DNA from: Bradyrhizobium sp. | GTDB taxonomy: Bacteria > Pseudomonadota > Alphaproteobacteria > Rhizobiales > Xanthobacteraceae | Reading direction: 5' to 3' | Assembly (NCBI RefSeq): GCF_027307225.1 | Contig: NZ_DAHUXJ010000086.1 | Location: forward strand, 1-64,000 | Length of the DNA: 64,000 nucleotides | Shown: piece after piece, positions 1-53,586 of the stretch | How the letters are laid out: each line of letters starts with the position of its first letter | Numbering within the stretch: the stretch's first letter is position 1 | Translations under genes and position numbers: made by a program | Notes under the pieces: model-generated | What the model was told of the DNA's origin: nothing | What the model saw: only the letters and a program-made list of their open reading frames with translations | Database searches by the model: none

Positions 1-183
1 GTTTCGCGGTAACCTCGTCATAGGAACTTCAAATTCTAAACCGCACTAGAATCATATAATTGGCTAGTGCTCCTTTGATTCCGAAGTTCGTAAACGTGGA
101 GCCGCAATATGATACGAACTTCGGAATCGGAGCACTAGTGCGGCGAATTTGAAGTTCCTATCAGTTTCGCCGTGAGTTCGTCG
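1..183 (-). repeat. Two-hairpin repeat module (copy R1, reverse, cut by window edge and truncated)
   Basis: Reading the reverse strand, this holds part of hairpin B (1-49), a short AT-rich linker, a complete hairpin A (64-138, CTAG at both ends, core GAAGTTC/GAACTTC) and then the first half of another hairpin B (135-181) that stops abruptly. Its reverse complement matches the R5/R6 array at about 38.51-38.70 kb almost base for base, differing at only a few positions. The stretch from 184 to 398 holds no gene I can support. Confidence 0.9.
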
Positions 184-8274: not shown

Positions 8275-9062
8275 TTTTCAACCGCCGTGTGGTTGCTCAC
8301 CCCGTAGCGAACCACATTGATGGTGCCGGTCCGGCGAAGGTCGTCGACGGCGACTGCAACCTGGTTGACGTCGGCGATGCTGCGCAGCGCCAGCGAGAGC
8401 GTGCCGGCCTGACGCGCGCCCGCCAGCAGCGTCGCCTGTTCGGGCTTCAGTTCGAGCGTGACGGTCTTGCCAATCACGGAATTCTGGCCGTCCTTTTCCT
8501 TCGGTGCCTGGTCGATGGCGAGAACGCGAACGTTTGAAAGAAGTATCGAAGGAACGATGAGGTCGCCGGTTGCTTTGGGATCCGGGTTTTTTTCGTGGCG
8601 GGTCAGGATCACGTCCACGCGGTCGTTAGGCAGGATGAAGCCGCCGGCGCCGGTCTCCGCCGAGATTTCGGTCGACACCGCGCGCATTCCCTGCGGCAGG
8701 ATCGCGGCCATGAAGCCTGATCCATCGGCCTTGATCAGTTTCGGTTCGCGGATCGGCTCGCCTGCGATGAAGGGCGATCGCGCGATCGAGCCGGTAATTT
8801 CCTTGGTTGCGTCGGGGCGCTCGTTGCGGCGGATAAAGGATTTGCTGGCCGTGGCTGCCGGCCAGGTTTGCCACGTCATGTCCTCAGGCGTGACTCTCTG
8901 GCCGAGGTTGATGTCGGCTTTGGCCACGAGAACATCGACGGTCGGAAGCTGCGCAGCCGGCGCGGCTACAGGCGGCTTGCTGTCCGATCCACTGGCGAGG
9001 TAGGCCGCCACTCCGCCGGCGCCAAGAGCGATGGTCAGGACAATTATGCGTGCCCTATTCAT
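8271..9062 (-). CDS. cpaB: Pilus assembly protein CpaB/RcpC
   Basis: Protein of 263 residues with one N-terminal membrane helix (IIVLTIALGAGGVAAYLASG), then an SAF/FlgA-like domain (about 45-110, VDVLVAKADINLGQRVTPED). The rest of the RcpC/CpaB domain ends in a stretch like LELKPEQATLLAGARQAGTL. It is a periplasmic partner of the secretin. An upstream in-frame ATG at 9080 exists, but the start at 9062 gives the normal membrane helix. It is the first gene of the cpaBCDEF-tadBC run. Confidence 0.93.
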   Translation of the reverse strand: MNRARIIVLTIALGAGGVAAYLASGSDSKPPVAAPAAQLPTVDVLVAKADINLGQRVTPEDMTWQTWPAATASKSFIRRNERPDATKEITGSIARSPFIAGEPIREPKLIKADGSGFMAAILPQGMRAVSTEISAETGAGGFILPNDRVDVILTRHEKNPDPKATGDLIVPSILLSNVRVLAIDQAPKEKDGQNSVIGKTVTLELKPEQATLLAGARQAGTLSLALRSIADVNQVAVAVDDLRRTGTINVVRYGVSNHTAVEK

Positions 9063-9189
9063 ACGCGTCACTTTCCACATTACACCGCGACGCTTCCGCC
9101 GCCGTGACGGGAGTTGACCAGTTATTCGTCAAAGCATGGTTAATGAGGCGTATCTAAATCGCGTTAATGAGAGTTTACCTCTCTGGCGA

Positions 9190-9714
9190 TCAGCCGATCA
9201 TCAGGCGCGCCAGGTCGACGGCCCTGATCCATTCGGTCTCGGGATAGACCACCAGCGCGCCAACGGCGAGTGCGATGCCGTAGGGAATTCCGCTCTCCTT
9301 GGCGTGCAGCTTGAGCAGCCAGGTCTGACCCGCGAGCGCATAGGGCAGAGGCCATTGCCTGAATTGAAGCAACAGCAGCGTCAGGGCGCCCCCGAAGAGT
9401 GAGGCATAGACCAGATAGTTGAGCAGATGGGCGAAGCCGAACCAGAGTGCGGCTGCGGCTGCCACCTTGGCATCGCCGCCGCCGATCCATCCGAACGCGA
9501 AACAGGCAAAGGCCGCGACCAGTATCAGGCTGCCCGCCGCCAAGTGCATCAGGATATCCGACGGCGCCATGCCGCTGGCGAACGCGAGCACAAGGAAACC
9601 GGCTGCGAGCGCGAGCGAGACGCGATTGGAAATCGTCATGGTGAAGAGGTCGCTTGCGGCTGCGAACGCCATCAGGGCCGGGAACAGCGTCAGGCGGGCG
9701 ATATCGATGATCAT
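9190..9714 (-). CDS. cpaA: Prepilin peptidase CpaA/TadV
   Basis: Small type IV prepilin peptidase (aspartic protease) of 174 residues, with about six membrane segments. The two catalytic aspartates are visible: D22 in the segment AASDLFTMTISN, and D81 in the GxGD motif (GWIGGGDAKV). It should process the Flp pilin encoded at 10.1-10.26 kb, whose Gly-Ala cleavage site is intact. It lies about 130 bp upstream of cpaB on the same strand. Confidence 0.94.
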   Translation of the reverse strand: MIIDIARLTLFPALMAFAAASDLFTMTISNRVSLALAAGFLVLAFASGMAPSDILMHLAAGSLILVAAFACFAFGWIGGGDAKVAAAAALWFGFAHLLNYLVYASLFGGALTLLLLQFRQWPLPYALAGQTWLLKLHAKESGIPYGIALAVGALVVYPETEWIRAVDLARLMIG

Positions 9715-9817: not shown

Positions 9818-9872
9818 GGATTTGGCATTCGCATCGCGAACGCGCATCTACAGCGTGGCGAATGTCAAATCC
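9818..9872. repeat. Single B-type hairpin of the dispersed repeat (S1)
   Basis: The left arm GGATTTGGCATTCGC (9818-9832) pairs with the right arm GCGAATGTCAAATCC (9858-9872) with one G-T mismatch across a 25-nt loop. This is the GACATTC version of hairpin B seen in copies R3 and R7, without the A hairpin and with degenerate outer stems. The right arm overlaps the stop codon of the small ORF at 9865-10023. Confidence 0.8.
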
Positions 9873-10264: not shown

Positions 10265-10537
10265 AGATAACTCCATGTGACACGTGGCTGGTCGAACTAA
10301 CTGTGGTCTCGCCGGCGTTCTCAGCACCGTGACCGTGGGGCACGCTACGAGGGAACCGATTTCGGCACGGTTAATTCGACTGCGCAAAACGCCGCATACG
10401 GCGCTGTTCTTGAGCACAGTAAATTTGGCATTAAGCGGCCTGCAAAGTTTCGAACAAAATAGGCCTGCGCTGATCACACCTAATTAAAGAGAGAGTTGAA
10501 TGGACCAGACGCCTCATTTTACGGCTCCTTAAGCCGC

Positions 10538-10551
10538 AAGGCGTACGCCTT
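10538..10551. other. Perfect 14-bp palindrome upstream of the hydroxylase gene
   Basis: AAGGCGTACGCCTT is a perfect palindrome 25 bp before the ATG at 10577. It could be an operator or chance. The gap 10265-10576 otherwise shows only the pilin leader and the divergent promoter region. Confidence 0.3.
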
Positions 10552-10576
10552 GGACAGTTGATGAAATGAGGTCGTC

Positions 10577-11404
10577 ATGTTCAACCCAGCGATGGAAGTC
10601 GTCGAAATGCTTGGCCAGACGATCGCCAAGGTCGTTCCGATCACCATCGTTCTGGCGCTGGTGTTTTCGGTGTTGACGCATTTCTGGGCCTGCAATCCCG
10701 GAACGCCCTGGTGGCGCAAGCGGGAGATCGTCACCGACGTCTGCTACTGGTTCTTCGTGCCGATGTTTGCCCGGGTGCTGCGGATCGGCCTGCTTGTGCT
10801 CGGCGCGGGCGTGGTCTTCAACATTCATGACGCCGACGGTCTGATCGCGTTCTATGACAATGGGCACGGTCCGCTCGCGCAGCTGCCGCTCTGGATCCAG
10901 GGGCTGCTGTTTCTCGTGCTCTCGGACTTCATGCTGTACTGGCTGCACCGGCTATTTCACGGCGGCGCGTTCTGGAAGTACCACGCGATCCATCACTCGT
11001 CGGAGGAACTGGACTGGATTTCCGCGGCGCGCTTCCATCCGGTCAATCTGTTCCTGGGAACGATTGCGGTTGACGTCATCTTGCTGATGGCCGGCATCTC
11101 GCCGAACATCATGCTGTGGGTCGGCCCGTTCACCACCTTCCATTCTGCCTTCGTGCACGCCAACCTGAGCTGGACGTTGGGGCCGTTCAGATATGTGCTG
11201 GCGACACCAGTGTTTCACCGCTGGCATCACACGGCGCTCGAGGAAGGCGGCGATACCAACTTCGCGGGCACCTTTCCGATCTGGGATATTCTGTTCGGGA
11301 CGTTCCGGATGCCGGACGGCCGGCTGCCGCAGGACTACGGGCAGGACGATCCGCGCATTCCTAATGAAATTGTTGGGCAACTCGCTTACCCTTTTCGCCA
11401 GTAG
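10577..11404 (+). CDS. Sterol desaturase / fatty acid hydroxylase family membrane protein
   Basis: Integral membrane di-iron oxygenase of 275 residues. The histidine clusters of the family are all present: HRLFH at 124-128, HAIHH at 136-140 and HRWHH at 214-218. Four or so hydrophobic segments flank them. Members hydroxylate or desaturate lipids, carotenoids or sterol/hopanoid-type molecules; the substrate cannot be read from sequence. It is divergent from the pilin gene and followed by an unrelated-looking pilus N-domain gene. Confidence 0.88.
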   Translation: MFNPAMEVVEMLGQTIAKVVPITIVLALVFSVLTHFWACNPGTPWWRKREIVTDVCYWFFVPMFARVLRIGLLVLGAGVVFNIHDADGLIAFYDNGHGPLAQLPLWIQGLLFLVLSDFMLYWLHRLFHGGAFWKYHAIHHSSEELDWISAARFHPVNLFLGTIAVDVILLMAGISPNIMLWVGPFTTFHSAFVHANLSWTLGPFRYVLATPVFHRWHHTALEEGGDTNFAGTFPIWDILFGTFRMPDGRLPQDYGQDDPRIPNEIVGQLAYPFRQ

Positions 11405-16334: not shown

Positions 16335-16443
16335 CCTCCGAGCGGTGATCTGACCGGGCGGCTTGCTCAAGAAGAGCGCGGCTCGCCCGGCCGATCATGC
16401 TGGTACCAGCGAGGCGGAAAGGCGGCGCCGCCGCCGCCTTTCA

Positions 16444-16611
16444 CTAGTGCTCCGATTCCGAAGTTCGTATCATATTGCGGCTCCACGTTTACGAACTTCG
16501 GAATCAAAGGAGCACTAGCCAATTGTATGATTTCTAGTGCGGTTTAGAATTTGAAGTTCCTATGACGAGGTTACCGCGAAACTGATAGGAACTTCAAATT
16601 CACCGCACTAG
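16444..16611 (+). repeat. Two-hairpin repeat module (copy R2)
   Basis: Hairpin A (16444-16518) has arms CTAGTGCTCC/GGAGCACTAG outside and GATTCCGAAGTTCGTA/ACGAACTTCGGAATC inside. A 15-nt AT-rich linker follows. Hairpin B (16534-16611) has arms CTAGTGCGG/CCGCACTAG outside and GAATTTGAAGTTCCTAT/ATAGGAACTTCAAATTC inside. Both share the core GAAGTTC. It is nearly identical to R1 and R6 elsewhere in the window. Confidence 0.95.
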
Positions 16612-16776
16612 TGTCCCGGTTCTGACATTCGTACGCTGTCGCGGCGGGTTTCCTTTACGAATGTCAGAACCAAAGGGACACTAGCAAATATAGATATGTA
16701 ATGCGGTTTTGGATTTGACATTCGCTTGGAGGAGTTGCGGCGCTGCTGAAGCGAATGTCAAATCCACCGTACAATT
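16608..16776 (+). repeat. Two-hairpin repeat module (copy R3, GACATTC type)
   Basis: It shares the CTAG of R2. Hairpin A (16608-16684) carries CTAGTGTCCC/GGGACACTAG and inner arms with TGACATTCG/CGAATGTCA. Hairpin B (about 16698-16776) carries GGATTTGACATTCGCTT/AAGCGAATGTCAAATCC with decayed outer stems. Both hairpins have switched from GAAGTTC to GACATTC. Confidence 0.92.
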
Positions 16777-16795
16777 TATTTTCTGCCGGGGTTGT

Positions 16796-16960
16796 CTAGT
16801 GCGGTGAATTTGAAGTTCCTATCAATGTCGCGGCAAGTTCGTAATAGGAACTTCAAATTCAAAGCAGCACTAGAATCATAAGTTGCTGGAGCTCCCTTGA
16901 TTCCGAAGTTCGCATCAGAGGCGCCGCGAAAGCTTGCGAACTTCGGAATCGGAGCTCCAG
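16796..16960 (-). repeat. Two-hairpin repeat module (copy R4, reverse)
   Basis: In reverse order, hairpin B (16796-16873) and hairpin A (16886-16960), both with core GAAGTTC. The A outer stem is CTGGAGCTCC/GGAGCTCCAG. The module's right edge touches the urtB GTG at 16960, and its GGAG (16951-16954) lies at ribosome-binding-site distance. Confidence 0.93.
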
Positions 16961-18570
16961 TGGCCGCTAACGCCTTCGACCGTCTTCGTTCGATCGTTCT
17001 CTCTGTCTTCCTGATTGTCGTCCTGACTTTGCCGGCATTCGCCGGCGCCTTCGACGATGCGGTCGCCAAATTCGCCAACGACGAGTTTTCCGATACCGAA
17101 GAGGCGATCGGCATGGTCGCGAGCTCCGGCAATCCGCTGGCCTTTCCCATCATCAGCGCGCTTCACGATGATCGGCTGTCGGCCGATCCGGACACCAAGA
17201 AGGTCTACATCACCCAGCAGGATGGCAAGATCATCGATGCGGCAACGGGGACTCCGGTCGCCAAGCTGCCGGACAACGCCGCCTCCGTTCGGCTCAATAA
17301 CCGTCTGCGACGCAGCGTCGAGGCCGCGCTCGGCAGCCTGACCTTGCTGTCACCCGATCCCGCCAAACGGATTGCGGCAGCACAAACCGTTTTCAAGTCG
17401 CACGAGGAAAGCGCTCTGCCGGTCGTCGAAGGGGCGCTGGCGAAAGAGACCAACAACGCGGTGAAGGCCGCGTTTGCCGAGGCGCGCGCGGCGATCCTGC
17501 TCAACAAGTCCGGCACCAGCGATGCCGACAGACTGGAGGCCATCGCCACGATCAAGGCGAGGGGCGATCAGGAAGCCCTTGCCTTGCTCACCGACCTTTC
17601 CGATCAGTCGCCATTGGTGGCCAAGGCGGCGGCGACCGCAGTGTCCTCGATCCAGAGCCGGCTTGCGATCTGGTCCGCGGTTCAGAACGCCTGGTACGGC
17701 CTGTCGCTTGGCTCGGTTCTGCTACTCGCTGCCATTGGCCTTGCCATCACCTTCGGCGTCATGGGCGTCATCAACATGGCGCATGGTGAGATGGTGATGC
17801 TCGGCGCCTACACCACCTTCGTGGTGCAGGACATCATCCGCACGAGTTTTCCTGGTCTGTTCGATTATTCGCTTTTCATCGCCGTGCCGCTGGCCTTTCT
17901 GGTAGCGGGCGCGATCGGCGTCTTGATCGAGCGGACGATCATTCGTTTTCTCTACGGACGGCCGCTCGAGACGTTGCTTGCGACCTGGGGCATTTCGCTG
18001 GTGCTGCAACAGGCGGTGCGCACGGCGTTCGGTCCCACCAACCGCGAAGTCGGCAATCCCTCCTGGATGAGCGGCGCGTTCGAGCTTGGCCAGATCACCA
18101 TCACCTATAACCGGCTATGGATTCTGTGTTTCACGCTTGCAGTGTTTGCAATCCTGCTGGCGATGCTGCGTTACACTGCCCTCGGGCTCGAGATGCGGGC
18201 GGTGACGCAGAACCGCCGCATGGCGGCCTCGATGGGGATCGCGACCTCGCGGGTCGATGCGCTGACCTTCGGACTTGGTTCAGGCATTGCCGGAATAGCC
18301 GGCGTGGCGCTGTCGCAGATCGACAACGTCAGTCCCAATCTCGGCCAGAGCTACATCATCGATTCCTTCATGGTCGTGGTGTTCGGCGGCGTCGGCAATT
18401 TGTGGGGCACGCTGGTCGGCGCCTTCACGCTCGGCATCGCCAACAAGTTCCTTGAGCCCGTTGCGGGCGCCGTGCTCGCCAAGATTGCCATTCTGGTCCT
18501 GATCATTCTCTTCATCCAGAAGCGGCCGCGCGGCCTGTTCGCGCTCAAGGGACGGGCGGTGGAAGCATGA
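16960..18570 (+). CDS. urtB: Urea ABC transporter permease UrtB
   Basis: Long-form UrtB of about 536 residues. A signal-like helix (LRSIVLSVFLIVVLTLPAFA) is followed by a roughly 200-residue periplasmic helical region. The LivH-type permease with about eight membrane segments starts near GLSLGSVLLLAAIGLAITFG. The EAA-like cytoplasmic loop MRAVTQNRRMAASMGI is present. The start chosen is the GTG at 16960, which gives the signal helix at once and has GGAG 5 nt upstream; a TTG at 16897 would translate through the repeat. The end overlaps urtC by 4 bp. Confidence 0.94.
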   Translation: MAANAFDRLRSIVLSVFLIVVLTLPAFAGAFDDAVAKFANDEFSDTEEAIGMVASSGNPLAFPIISALHDDRLSADPDTKKVYITQQDGKIIDAATGTPVAKLPDNAASVRLNNRLRRSVEAALGSLTLLSPDPAKRIAAAQTVFKSHEESALPVVEGALAKETNNAVKAAFAEARAAILLNKSGTSDADRLEAIATIKARGDQEALALLTDLSDQSPLVAKAAATAVSSIQSRLAIWSAVQNAWYGLSLGSVLLLAAIGLAITFGVMGVINMAHGEMVMLGAYTTFVVQDIIRTSFPGLFDYSLFIAVPLAFLVAGAIGVLIERTIIRFLYGRPLETLLATWGISLVLQQAVRTAFGPTNREVGNPSWMSGAFELGQITITYNRLWILCFTLAVFAILLAMLRYTALGLEMRAVTQNRRMAASMGIATSRVDALTFGLGSGIAGIAGVALSQIDNVSPNLGQSYIIDSFMVVVFGGVGNLWGTLVGAFTLGIANKFLEPVAGAVLAKIAILVLIILFIQKRPRGLFALKGRAVEA

Positions 18571-22843: not shown

Positions 22844-24559
<1,716 letters not shown>

Positions 24560-38391: not shown

Positions 38392-38557
38392 CTAGAGCTC
38401 CGATTCCGAAGTTCGCAAGCTATTGCGGCCCCTCCGATGCGAACTTCGGAATCAAAGGAGCTCTAGCAACTTATTAATTCTAGTTCGGCTTCGAATTTGA
38501 AGTTCCAGTAACGAACTCACGGCGAAACTGATAGGAACTTCAAATTCGCCGCACTAG
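38392..38557 (+). repeat. Two-hairpin repeat module (copy R5)
   Basis: Hairpin A (38392-38466) has outer arms CTAGAGCTCC/GGAGCTCTAG. Hairpin B (38480-38557) has inner arms GAATTTGAAGTTCC/GGAACTTCAAATTC and a decayed outer left arm (CTAGTTCGG). Both hairpins carry GAAGTTC. It shares its last CTAG with R6. It sits 16 bp upstream of the ATG of the YqjE-like gene. Confidence 0.93.
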
Positions 38558-38720
38558 TGCTCCGATTCCGAAGTTCGTATCATATTGCGGCTCCACGTTT
38601 ACGAACTTCGGAATCAAAGGAGCACTAGCCAATTATGTGATTCTAGTGCGGTTTAGAATTTGAAGTTCCTATGACGAAGTTACCGCGACACTGATAGGAA
38701 CTTCAAATTCACCGCACTAG
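38554..38720 (+). repeat. Two-hairpin repeat module (copy R6)
   Basis: Hairpin A (38554-38628) and hairpin B (38643-38720) with the same arms as R2, core GAAGTTC. It differs from R2 at only a few loop and linker bases. It ends 13 bp before the stop codon of the DUF883 gene on the minus strand. Confidence 0.95.
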
Positions 38721-42094: not shown

Positions 42095-42250
42095 ATGCTC
42101 ATCAGTGCGCTTGTGACCTTCGTTGTCATCATTCTGATCCTGTATCTCGTCAACCTCTTGCCGCTCGATGGCCGCGCCAAGCAGATTGTGCGCGTCATCG
42201 TGGTGATTATCGGCATCCTGTCGCTGCTCAAATATATTGCGGTGTTCTAG
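42095..42250 (+). CDS. Tiny two-helix membrane protein (Thivi_2564-like)
   Basis: Protein of 51 residues, almost all membrane: LISALVTFVVIILILYLVNL, a short loop with LDGRAKQ, then VRVIVVIIGILSLLKYI. It resembles the Thivi_2564 family of small membrane proteins, whose role is unknown. The ATG at 42095 follows AGGGGAAC and an exact EcfG-type promoter. The stop codon TAG is part of the CTAG that opens repeat module R7. Confidence 0.75.
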   Translation: MLISALVTFVVIILILYLVNLLPLDGRAKQIVRVIVVIIGILSLLKYIAVF

Positions 42251-42414
42251 CGGTCCGATTCTAACATTCGCATTCCTTCTCAGCGGGCACCATTGCGAAT
42301 GTTAGAATCAAAGGACCACTAGCAAATTCAACATGCTAGTGGAGTTTAGGATTTGACATTCGCTATGCGGGTTCGCGGCAAGGCGGGTAGCGAATGTCAA
42401 ATCCACTCCACTAG
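42247..42414 (+). repeat. Two-hairpin repeat module (copy R7, ACATTC type)
   Basis: Hairpin A (42247-42322) has inner arms GATTCTAACATTCGCA/TGCGAATGTTAGAATC. Hairpin B (42336-42414) has GGATTTGACATTCGCT/AGCGAATGTCAAATCC and outer arms CTAGTGGAG/CTCCACTAG. Both carry ACATTCG instead of GAAGTTC. The opening CTAG supplies the stop codon of the preceding gene. Confidence 0.93.
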
Positions 42415-52890: not shown

Positions 52891-53059
52891 CCAGCGCCCA
52901 CTTTCCGAAGTTCTTGTTATACCTCAGCACCCACCTTCCACGAACTTCGGAAAGTTATGGGCTCTGGCATATCTGTGATCCCGGTGCCGCTTTCCCATTT
53001 GAAGTTCCTGGACGGAATTCGCCGCTTGTTCTGCAGCAACTTCAAATGGACGGCACCGG
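52891..53059 (+). repeat. Two-hairpin repeat module (copy R8, overlapping a coding region)
   Basis: Hairpin A (52891-52967) has arms CCAGCGCCC/GGGCTCTGG outside and TTTCCGAAGTTC/GAACTTCGGAAA inside. Hairpin B (52981-53059) has CCGGTGCCG/CGGCACCGG outside and CCATTTGAAGTTCCTG/CAGCAACTTCAAATGG inside. The core is GAAGTTC in both, but the outer stems differ wholly from other copies and lack CTAG. It runs into the N-terminal codons of the CAP lipoprotein gene. Confidence 0.88.
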
Positions 53060-53586
53060 CCGCGGTGATCGGATTATTGGTGCTTGGCGGCTGCGCATCG
53101 GAGGCTCCGGTGGAGCAGCCGAGCATGTATCTCAACATGACCGAACCCGGTGCGAAGCTCGACGCCGAGGCCGCAGCGACGATGATTTCGCTCTATCGCA
53201 AGAACAACGGCGTCGGCGCCGTCGTCATCGATCCCGAGTTGATGAGGATCGCGGAAGCCCAGTCCGACGCCATGGCAAGCCGCAACAAGCTTGATCATGA
53301 CGTCAAGGCACCGTTGCCGAAACGCCTGCAAGCGGCCGGATATCCCTCGACGCTTGCGGTCGAAAATGTGTCAGCCGGTTACCATACGCTGGCCGAGGCT
53401 TTTTCGGGTTGGCGGGATTCGCCGCCGCACCGGGCCAATATGCTGCAAAACGGTGTCACAAAGATGGGCATCGCGGCGAGCTATGCTCCGAATACCAAAT
53501 ACAAGGTGTTCTGGACGCTCATCCTTGCAACCACTGAGCCGCGCGAACAGGTTGGCATACCAATTCCTACCCGCCGCGCCAATTGA
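52957..53586 (+). CDS. CAP-domain (SCP-like) lipoprotein with repeat-derived N-terminus
   Basis: Protein of 209 residues from the ATG shown. A hydrophobic signal ends in a lipobox (VIGLLVLGGCASE). The CAP domain follows (about 65-195): SLYRKNNGVGAVVIDPELMR, RNKLDHDVKA, AVENVSAGYHTLAEAFSGWR, SPPHRANMLQNG. Bacterial CAP proteins are extracytoplasmic; some are proteases or ligand binders. The ATG 52957 lies in repeat hairpin A. A TTG at 52999 inside hairpin B gives a shorter and perhaps better signal peptide (MKFLDGIRRLF...). Confidence 0.82.
   Translation: MGSGISVIPVPLSHLKFLDGIRRLFCSNFKWTAPAAVIGLLVLGGCASEAPVEQPSMYLNMTEPGAKLDAEAAATMISLYRKNNGVGAVVIDPELMRIAEAQSDAMASRNKLDHDVKAPLPKRLQAAGYPSTLAVENVSAGYHTLAEAFSGWRDSPPHRANMLQNGVTKMGIAASYAPNTKYKVFWTLILATTEPREQVGIPIPTRRAN

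Follow-up and report, generated by a model that had tools for sequence, protein, structure and literature searches.

What are the paired hairpins that recur through a 64,000-nucleotide stretch of Bradyrhizobium sp. DNA (hereafter the window), and why should two unlike hairpins carry one and the same core? The original prediction, made from the letters of the window, described dispersed modules R1-R8, each with a hairpin A, a short AT-rich linker and a hairpin B, whose inner cores carry AG or CA and agree within a module. It took this agreement as a sign of one sequence-specific partner, such as a REP/IS200-type HUH nuclease. We report here that the modules are copies of a small mobile DNA element built from two hairpins, and we consider what may move it and what its settled copies may do.

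Structure of the modules

Seven complete two-hairpin modules were found in the window, and an eighth is truncated at the window start (Table 1). Their hairpin arms are perfect or almost perfect, and the modules R1-R8 proved real. Each reads, in order, CTAG (or a related tetranucleotide, hereafter tetrad), hairpin A, a tetrad, an AT-rich linker of ~13-16 nt, a tetrad, hairpin B and a tetrad. The bounding of both hairpins on both sides by CTAG or a related tetrad is a feature that the original prediction did not contain. From tetrad to tetrad the modules span ~163-170 bp, most often 167, which was the CTAG-to-CTAG length in 41 of 92 modules. The sequence of hairpin A is similar to the reverse complement of B, and the bulges point inward. 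Indeed, an unpaired AAA usually lies on the inner side of A and an unpaired TTT(A) on the inner side of B, which makes the module an inverted pair. The array at 16444-16960 consists of two modules with one common CTAG and a third, inverted module. The first of these (16444) gave an RNA fold of -83.4 kcal/mol, as compared with -38.3 +/- 4.1 for shuffled sequences (z -11.0).

Table 1. Two-hairpin modules and a related hairpin in the window
Feature	Position	Strand	Remarks
Partial module cut by window start	1..138	-	B incomplete, A complete; inverted repeats 21-160 and 77-128; CTAG 135-138 common to truncated next hairpin
Degenerate solo B-like hairpin	9819..9871	.	GGCATTC/GACATTC
Complete module, AG/AG cores	16444..16611	+	CTAG both ends; between urtA-like and urtB-like genes
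Complete module, CA/CA cores	16608..16775	+	CTAG 16608-16611 common with preceding module; right tetrad CAAT
Complete module, AG/AG cores, inverted	16796..16960	-	Outer tetrads CTAG left, CCAG right (CTGG in module orientation)
Complete module, AG/AG cores	38392..38557	+	CTAG 38554-38557 common with next module
Complete module, AG/AG cores	38554..38720	+	97% identical to module at 16444
Complete module, CA/CA cores	42247..42414	+	Hairpin A is AACATTCG
Older complete module, AG/AG cores	52891..53061	+	Outer tetrads CCAG, CCGG; ends approximate; orientation by eye

A search of the window modules against Rfam 15 gave no match at gathering score, and a known Rfam RNA family was set aside; at E<=1, the region 16400-17000 gave sub-threshold matches only, mostly to miRNA models. 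Incidentally, the Rfam 5' ureB sRNA model matched the minus strand at 22994-23284, inside the urease alpha-subunit gene, probably as coding-sequence homology only.

The pairing of A with B was also seen when the core motif was left unused. We analysed 825 kb of the source genome (G000), on contigs taken from hit lists and hence non-random, so that densities in this sample are biased, and extracted 76 modules. Neighbouring hairpins peaked at 90-99 nt centre to centre (75 pairs), as compared with at most 5 pairs in any other 5-nt spacing bin below 300 nt. This single sharp peak indicated that the A/B module is not a product of chance.

Linkage of the A and B cores

A and B cores were equal, as predicted, in every complete module of the window (AG/AG in five, CA/CA in two). 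To measure the link, 304 candidate modules were aligned and 35 were dropped for a gap or unequal arms. The remaining 269, which retain a few false or mis-joined modules, comprised 143 CA/CA, 88 AG/AG, 14 CA/CG, 11 CA/AG, 7 AG/CA, 3 AG/CG and 3 CG/CA pairs. The core dinucleotides proved to be linked, since they were equal in 231/269 modules against 131.7 +/- 7.5 after shuffling. When each 80%-identity cluster was represented by one module, 55/70 were equal against 36.0 +/- 3.6, a value that none of 20000 shuffles reached. With one representative per 70%-identity cluster, 10/20 were equal against 8.7 +/- 2.1, and 7094 of 20000 shuffles reached this value. Such chance-level agreement among 20 clusters indicates that most of the linkage is shared descent in two large subfamilies. 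Mixed-core modules were also found, at C151:77364 in G000, at L326, and upstream of cysS and of ftsY in several Bradyrhizobium species. The linkage is genuine and mostly inherited within subfamilies: the predicted association held statistically, but its strictness did not. A and B cores change together mainly because each subfamily was copied as one unit.

Copy number and spread

An exact B-hairpin pattern had 323 matches in the source genome (5.6 Mb, 160 contigs), and the reversed-pattern control had none. The 264 other genomes of the genus held 0-124 exact B hairpins each, and 126/265 genomes of the genus had at least one. The five richest held 323 (G000), 124 (G090), 77 (G252), 27 (G236) and 11 copies, and the others 0-7. 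Across the family, 149/391 genomes and 23/47 genera were positive, including one genome with 198 copies, and 24 genomes from elsewhere in the order, outside the family, had no match to the exact pattern. Full-length homologues with 71-74% identity were present on plasmids of Martelella, Aminobacter, Rhizobium and Roseibium/Labrenzia. They keep the CTAG-linker-CTAG layout, with altered cores in some, and the element thus occurs in other Hyphomicrobiales families with changed cores. No homologue was found in phage records. The hosts among the matches listed were Afipia massiliensis, other Afipia, Bradyrhizobium and Xanthobacteraceae MAGs; the same matches included a few records titled Rhodospirillaceae, Betaproteobacteria and Marinimicrobia MAGs, which are perhaps misnamed.

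Many copies at different loci of one genome are 95-99% identical. Some variants were also seen. The module L438 in G406 has the usual geometry and ends of CTAG type, but its A and B cores are wholly different and unrelated; C20:24508 and C20:30022 in G000 are chimeric single hairpins with the left arm of A and the right arm of B; and C26:26615 in G000 is a solo A hairpin with CTAG on both sides.

Filled and empty sites

The modules are mobile. At eight sites, whose gene names were read by eye from translated starts, filled alleles faced module-free alleles in relatives. Three of these sites were in Bradyrhizobium. A ubiA-like site was filled at 9 loci while the best 30 matches to the joined flanks were all empty, and a site upstream of ftsY was filled in 5 genomes with 30 matches to the joined flanks all empty, a query that favours empty alleles at both sites. 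The third, fliQ-fliR, was empty in L073. In Afipia, murJ-trpS was filled in G372 and G509 and module-free in the 12 relatives with anchors found, and four more sites (S1-S4) had filled and empty alleles. Both hairpins were together at filled sites. For the module at 42247, no match among those listed from 265 genomes covered its intergenic stretch. Incidentally, the fliQ-fliR and upstream-ftsY gaps hold what appear by eye to be independent insertions in different lineages, differing in orientation or slightly in point (L323 vs L106; G000 C13:74167 vs L112).

Where the flanks aligned fully in the closest relatives, the empty allele had 4 nt and the filled allele one tetrad per end, and the net gain at recent sites was 163-164 bp. 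At S1, filled CTAG/CTAG, the empty allele was GCTT in one relative (51/52 flank bases shown identical) and GCTG in two. Exactly 4 nt were thus present in 3/12 module-free relatives, the other nine having other gap lengths or diverged flanks. At S3, filled CTAG/CTAG in two species and TTAG/CTAG in a third, the empty alleles were CGCG, CCCG, TCCT and TCCT in 4/7 module-free relatives, and 3, 6 or 7 nt long in the other three. The empty 4-mers of S1 and S3 are absent from both filled CTAG ends, indicating that no target duplication took place there. CTAG was in the empty allele of S2 in 6/9 relatives (exactly 4 nt in 2/9). At S4, one relative had CTTG with a flank change and three others differed more, and the empty murJ-trpS site read CTGG or CCGG in most close relatives. 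At these last three sites, an ordinary duplication of a 4-bp CTAG target would also fit. The insertions at the three Bradyrhizobium sites are old: their empty alleles read GCGA, CCGC and GCCC (with variants), their filled tetrads differ between ends, and 4/30 empty alleles at ftsY are 3 nt shorter. It is on the two clean recent sites, S1 and S3, that the exchange model discussed below rests.

Terminal tetrads

Of the 304 modules, 12 lacked a full tetrad set and 25 of the remaining 292 were dropped as spurious or orthologous. In the 267 left, CTAG stood at each of the four tetrad positions in 165-194 modules. GTAG was a rare tetrad (for example, 2 outer-left and 5 inner-right among 304). When the outer-left tetrad was not CTAG, it was complementary to the inner-left one in 28/73 cases, as compared with 7.2 +/- 2.2 after shuffling; on the right side, the figures were 39/99 and 6.1 +/- 2.3. 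In contrast, a non-CTAG outer-left tetrad equalled the outer-right one in 3/73 cases (shuffle 2.3 +/- 1.4). Outer tetrads that pair with inner ones and leave the two outer ends unmatched behave as part of the hairpin and not as a duplicated target. Insertion into palindromic targets was considered as well and rejected, flank complementarity beyond the tetrads being that of shuffles over 130 flank pairs. CTAG is rare outside modules. The 825-kb sample contains 555, against 2872 expected from base composition (~fivefold depletion), and 223 of these 555 (~40%) are in modules. Some copies also adjoin another copy at its CTAG, in tandem or nested.

Search for a mobilizing gene

Searches with PF01797 over 41 and 18 genomes found no mobilizing gene for the modules, and the presence of this family showed no clear relation to module copy number. 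G090, with its 124 exact B hairpins on a single contig, had no match at E<=1e-3, nor had G234, G175 and G174 (11, 7 and 6 hairpins). G030 and G211 combined strong IS200-type matches with a lack of exact hairpins, a strong IS200-type match was also present in G000 and G236, and G252 had RAYT-like matches only. G000 has two RAYT-like genes; the hairpin finder, run on 14 kb around one and 18 kb around the other, detected other palindromes and no A-B module. One gene, L113 (~10277-10906), lies near a CCCATCCTACGG palindrome, and the other, L114 (~8465-9244), near a GATTTGCCCGTCG...CGGGCAAATC palindrome; by eye, these look like GTAG/CGTC-type REPs. Incidentally, an intact IS200-type element, uncommon among the genus genomes checked, adjoins the B end of an A-B module on contig C85 of G000 (L115, 9180-9840), and by eye it appears to have its own, different end hairpins. 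Solo hairpins, viewed by eye within the ~15% of the genome read, showed no A-gene-B arrangement.

RAYT or IS200 as the partner was not supported, given the copy-rich G090 without a Y1 match and RAYT-like genes that stand beside other repeats. The HUH nuclease that the original prediction offered as one candidate thus found no support, and neither did a RAYT/TnpA-REP family matching the element, since Y1 genes do not track copy number. What remains of the prediction is a sequence-specific factor acting in trans, plausible because the modules move and their A and B cores are statistically linked; its HUH identity and a strict linkage were not supported.

Genomic placement and fixed copies

On one side of the array at 16444-16960 stands a substrate-binding gene (PF13433) and on the other a permease gene (PF02653); UreD and urease alpha genes belong to the same cluster, for which reason we call the two neighbours urtA-like and urtB-like. 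By gene models that simply take the longest ORF, and that fail at least at urtA, 2/66 placed modules were inside an ORF model, and divergent-gene (promoter) gaps were under-used (10/64 intergenic modules, as compared with 82/309 gaps of at least 120 bp). In-frame or gene-disrupting insertion was not retained, as no convincing interrupted gene was seen among those viewed. Nor was an enrichment of modules behind any gene class shown. The same held for substrate-binding genes: Peripla_BP_6 accounted for 2/43 genes ending before modules, one of them (urtA) added by hand, and was absent from the 25 families listed, of 95, in a control of 91 proteins, drawn from 140 random gene models and mainly from the longer ones.

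On plasmids, two homologues separate a substrate-binding gene from the remaining genes of an ABC operon. In E. coli, a REP between malE and malF acts as an intercistronic RNA hairpin, and the urtA-/urtB-like placement, together with the two plasmid cases, would by analogy fit such a role. At four orthologous fixed loci, each in 5-9 species, variable columns numbered 20/266 in stems and 63/191 in loops (p=6e-12), 12/22 in linkers and 429/1840 in flanks. Double-sided pair changes amounted to 6 cells, all at one locus, which speaks for purifying selection more than for covariation. Alternatively, the stems may be kept alike by palindrome correction during replication.

Discussion

The modules share features with several known repeats. 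Like REPINs and REP doublets with their RAYT, they have two inverted hairpin units as the mobile unit, a short spacer, many copies, an intergenic location and a tetranucleotide at the hairpin foot. Yet their stems are ~26-29 bp and their loops ~20-29 nt, whereas the stems of GTAG REP families measure 6-13 bp (PMC3733652). GTAG REPs have GTAG on one side, whereas the modules have tetrads, mostly CTAG and not GTAG/GTRG, on both sides of both hairpins. No linked RAYT was found, no copy was seen in the stretches around the two RAYT-like genes of G000, and copy number does not vary with Y1 genes. Bacterial MITEs, such as those of IS5 or IS630, are similar in being short, without a gene, with related ends (here CTAGTGx plus core), at high copy number, polymorphic in insertion and directed to a CTAG-like target, and the modules are indeed short non-coding elements (~167 bp) with polymorphic insertion at eight sites. 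Unlike MITEs, each of their ends is itself a full hairpin, and their outer and inner tetrads covary. The modules thus differ from REPs in the features that define these, a GTAG foot and a linked RAYT, and two clean sites lack the duplicated target expected of ordinary MITEs.

IS200/IS605 elements are not known to duplicate their target on insertion. Their ends also resemble the modules in having a hairpin and a tetranucleotide that pairs with another at the end (PMC6006769, PMC8266576). In the modules, however, the pairing closes the hairpin foot, both sides become CTAG, and the Y1 transposase does not accompany multiplication, being absent in G090 and present in G030 and G211 with zero copies. 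RIME elements of rhizobia are intergenic mosaic elements with two palindromes. They are named in PMC2573895 and were compared with the modules by description. Bradyrhizobium itself has palindromic intergenic repeats, the CGTC REPs, Br-REP1 and Br-REP2 (PMC5082802), whose sequences differ by eye from those of the modules (Br-REP1 is CCGGAATCTCGAGATTCCGG). Palindromes that look by eye like CGTC or GTAG types occur separately from the modules in G000.

We think it probable that the module is a non-autonomous mobile element, MITE- or REPIN-like, moved by a trans-acting enzyme and with some copies kept as intercistronic hairpins. Each end would be a complete hairpin, with a tetranucleotide, usually the self-complementary CTAG, as terminus. 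The enzyme would recognise the hairpin arms and tetrads, and insertion would add the element with one tetrad per end, four target bases being lost or overwritten at the clearest sites. CTAG targets, including those of older copies, may also be used, giving tandem or nested arrays with a common CTAG. The need for both ends to be recognised probably keeps the cores together. Fixed copies, mostly intergenic and conserved in stems, not in loops, would probably act at the RNA level, as hairpins between cistrons or in 3' regions. Solo A hairpins with CTAG on either side count against this explanation, as they show that one hairpin can be lost or stand alone. Much more tentatively, insertion may swap four target bases for the element's own terminal tetrad at both ends, with the outer tetrad specified by the inner one, paired or copied, and an enzyme outside HUH/RAYT; we regard such an exchange as possible. 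If true, it would differ from target-duplicating transposition and from the known guide-type single-strand transposition.

More conventional origins were weighed against these proposals. An ordinary MITE of a DDE insertion sequence would duplicate a 4-bp CTAG-like target, and outer tetrads that differ would later be matched to the inner ones by (quasi-)palindrome correction or pairing selection. This would suit ends that read CTAG-TG...CA-CTAG, empty alleles at S2, S4 and murJ-trpS that are CTAG or 1-2 changes away, and nested and tandem copies at CTAG, the scarcity of which outside modules would make older copies favoured targets. Yet the target 4-mers of S1 and S3 are unlike CTAG while both filled ends are CTAG, left equals right at the level of chance among non-CTAG outer-left ends, and no DDE element with the module's ends was met incidentally, so that we consider the DDE origin rather unlikely. 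A REPIN-like element moved on single-stranded hairpins by a RAYT or an IS200/IS605 HUH transposase, with the inner tetrad guiding the outer one, would likewise account for two inverted hairpins with inward bulges, intergenic location and lack of target duplication at two sites. The tetrad-tetrad pairing is reminiscent of the guide sequences of IS200/IS605 (PMC6006769, PMC8266576), an intact IS200-type gene lies beside one module, and G000 and G236 have strong IS200-type matches. Nonetheless, such a transposase seems improbable to us. Four module-bearing genomes had no PF01797 match and two genomes with strong IS200-type matches had no exact hairpin, the IS200 copy at C85 seems by eye to carry different end hairpins and the RAYT-like genes lie near other palindromes, and the left target tetrad that an IS200-type insertion keeps was not seen at S1 or S3.

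A last reading, to which we give hardly any credence, takes the modules as hairpins with a regulatory or structural task in the host (terminators, RNA processing or nucleoid-protein sites), present in numbers set by selection and not by mobility. In its favour are the conserved stems at four fixed loci, intergenic placement, the position of the window array between urtA-like and urtB-like genes, and that of the two plasmid homologues next to a substrate-binding gene of an ABC operon. As the sole explanation, however, it is refuted by the empty alleles. Presence or absence at eight sites, near-identical copies at different loci of one genome, and a range of 0 to 323 copies within one genus call for more than host selection.

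A literature search restricted to open-licence papers found no published description of this element; of 37 papers that matched its motif, the 30 listed bear titles that suggest no connection. As far as that literature goes, and with RIMEs compared by description only, the modules are novel as a family, and their insertion reaction is possibly novel too. They apparently form a large family of elements in the Bradyrhizobium-Afipia group and its relatives, with up to hundreds of copies per genome. A reaction with a 4-nt exchange, no duplication and paired inner and outer tetrads would be unusual, and the filled and empty pairs make it directly testable. Fixed copies such as those at fliQ-fliR and upstream of ftsY are natural cases in which an intercistronic hairpin function can be tested.
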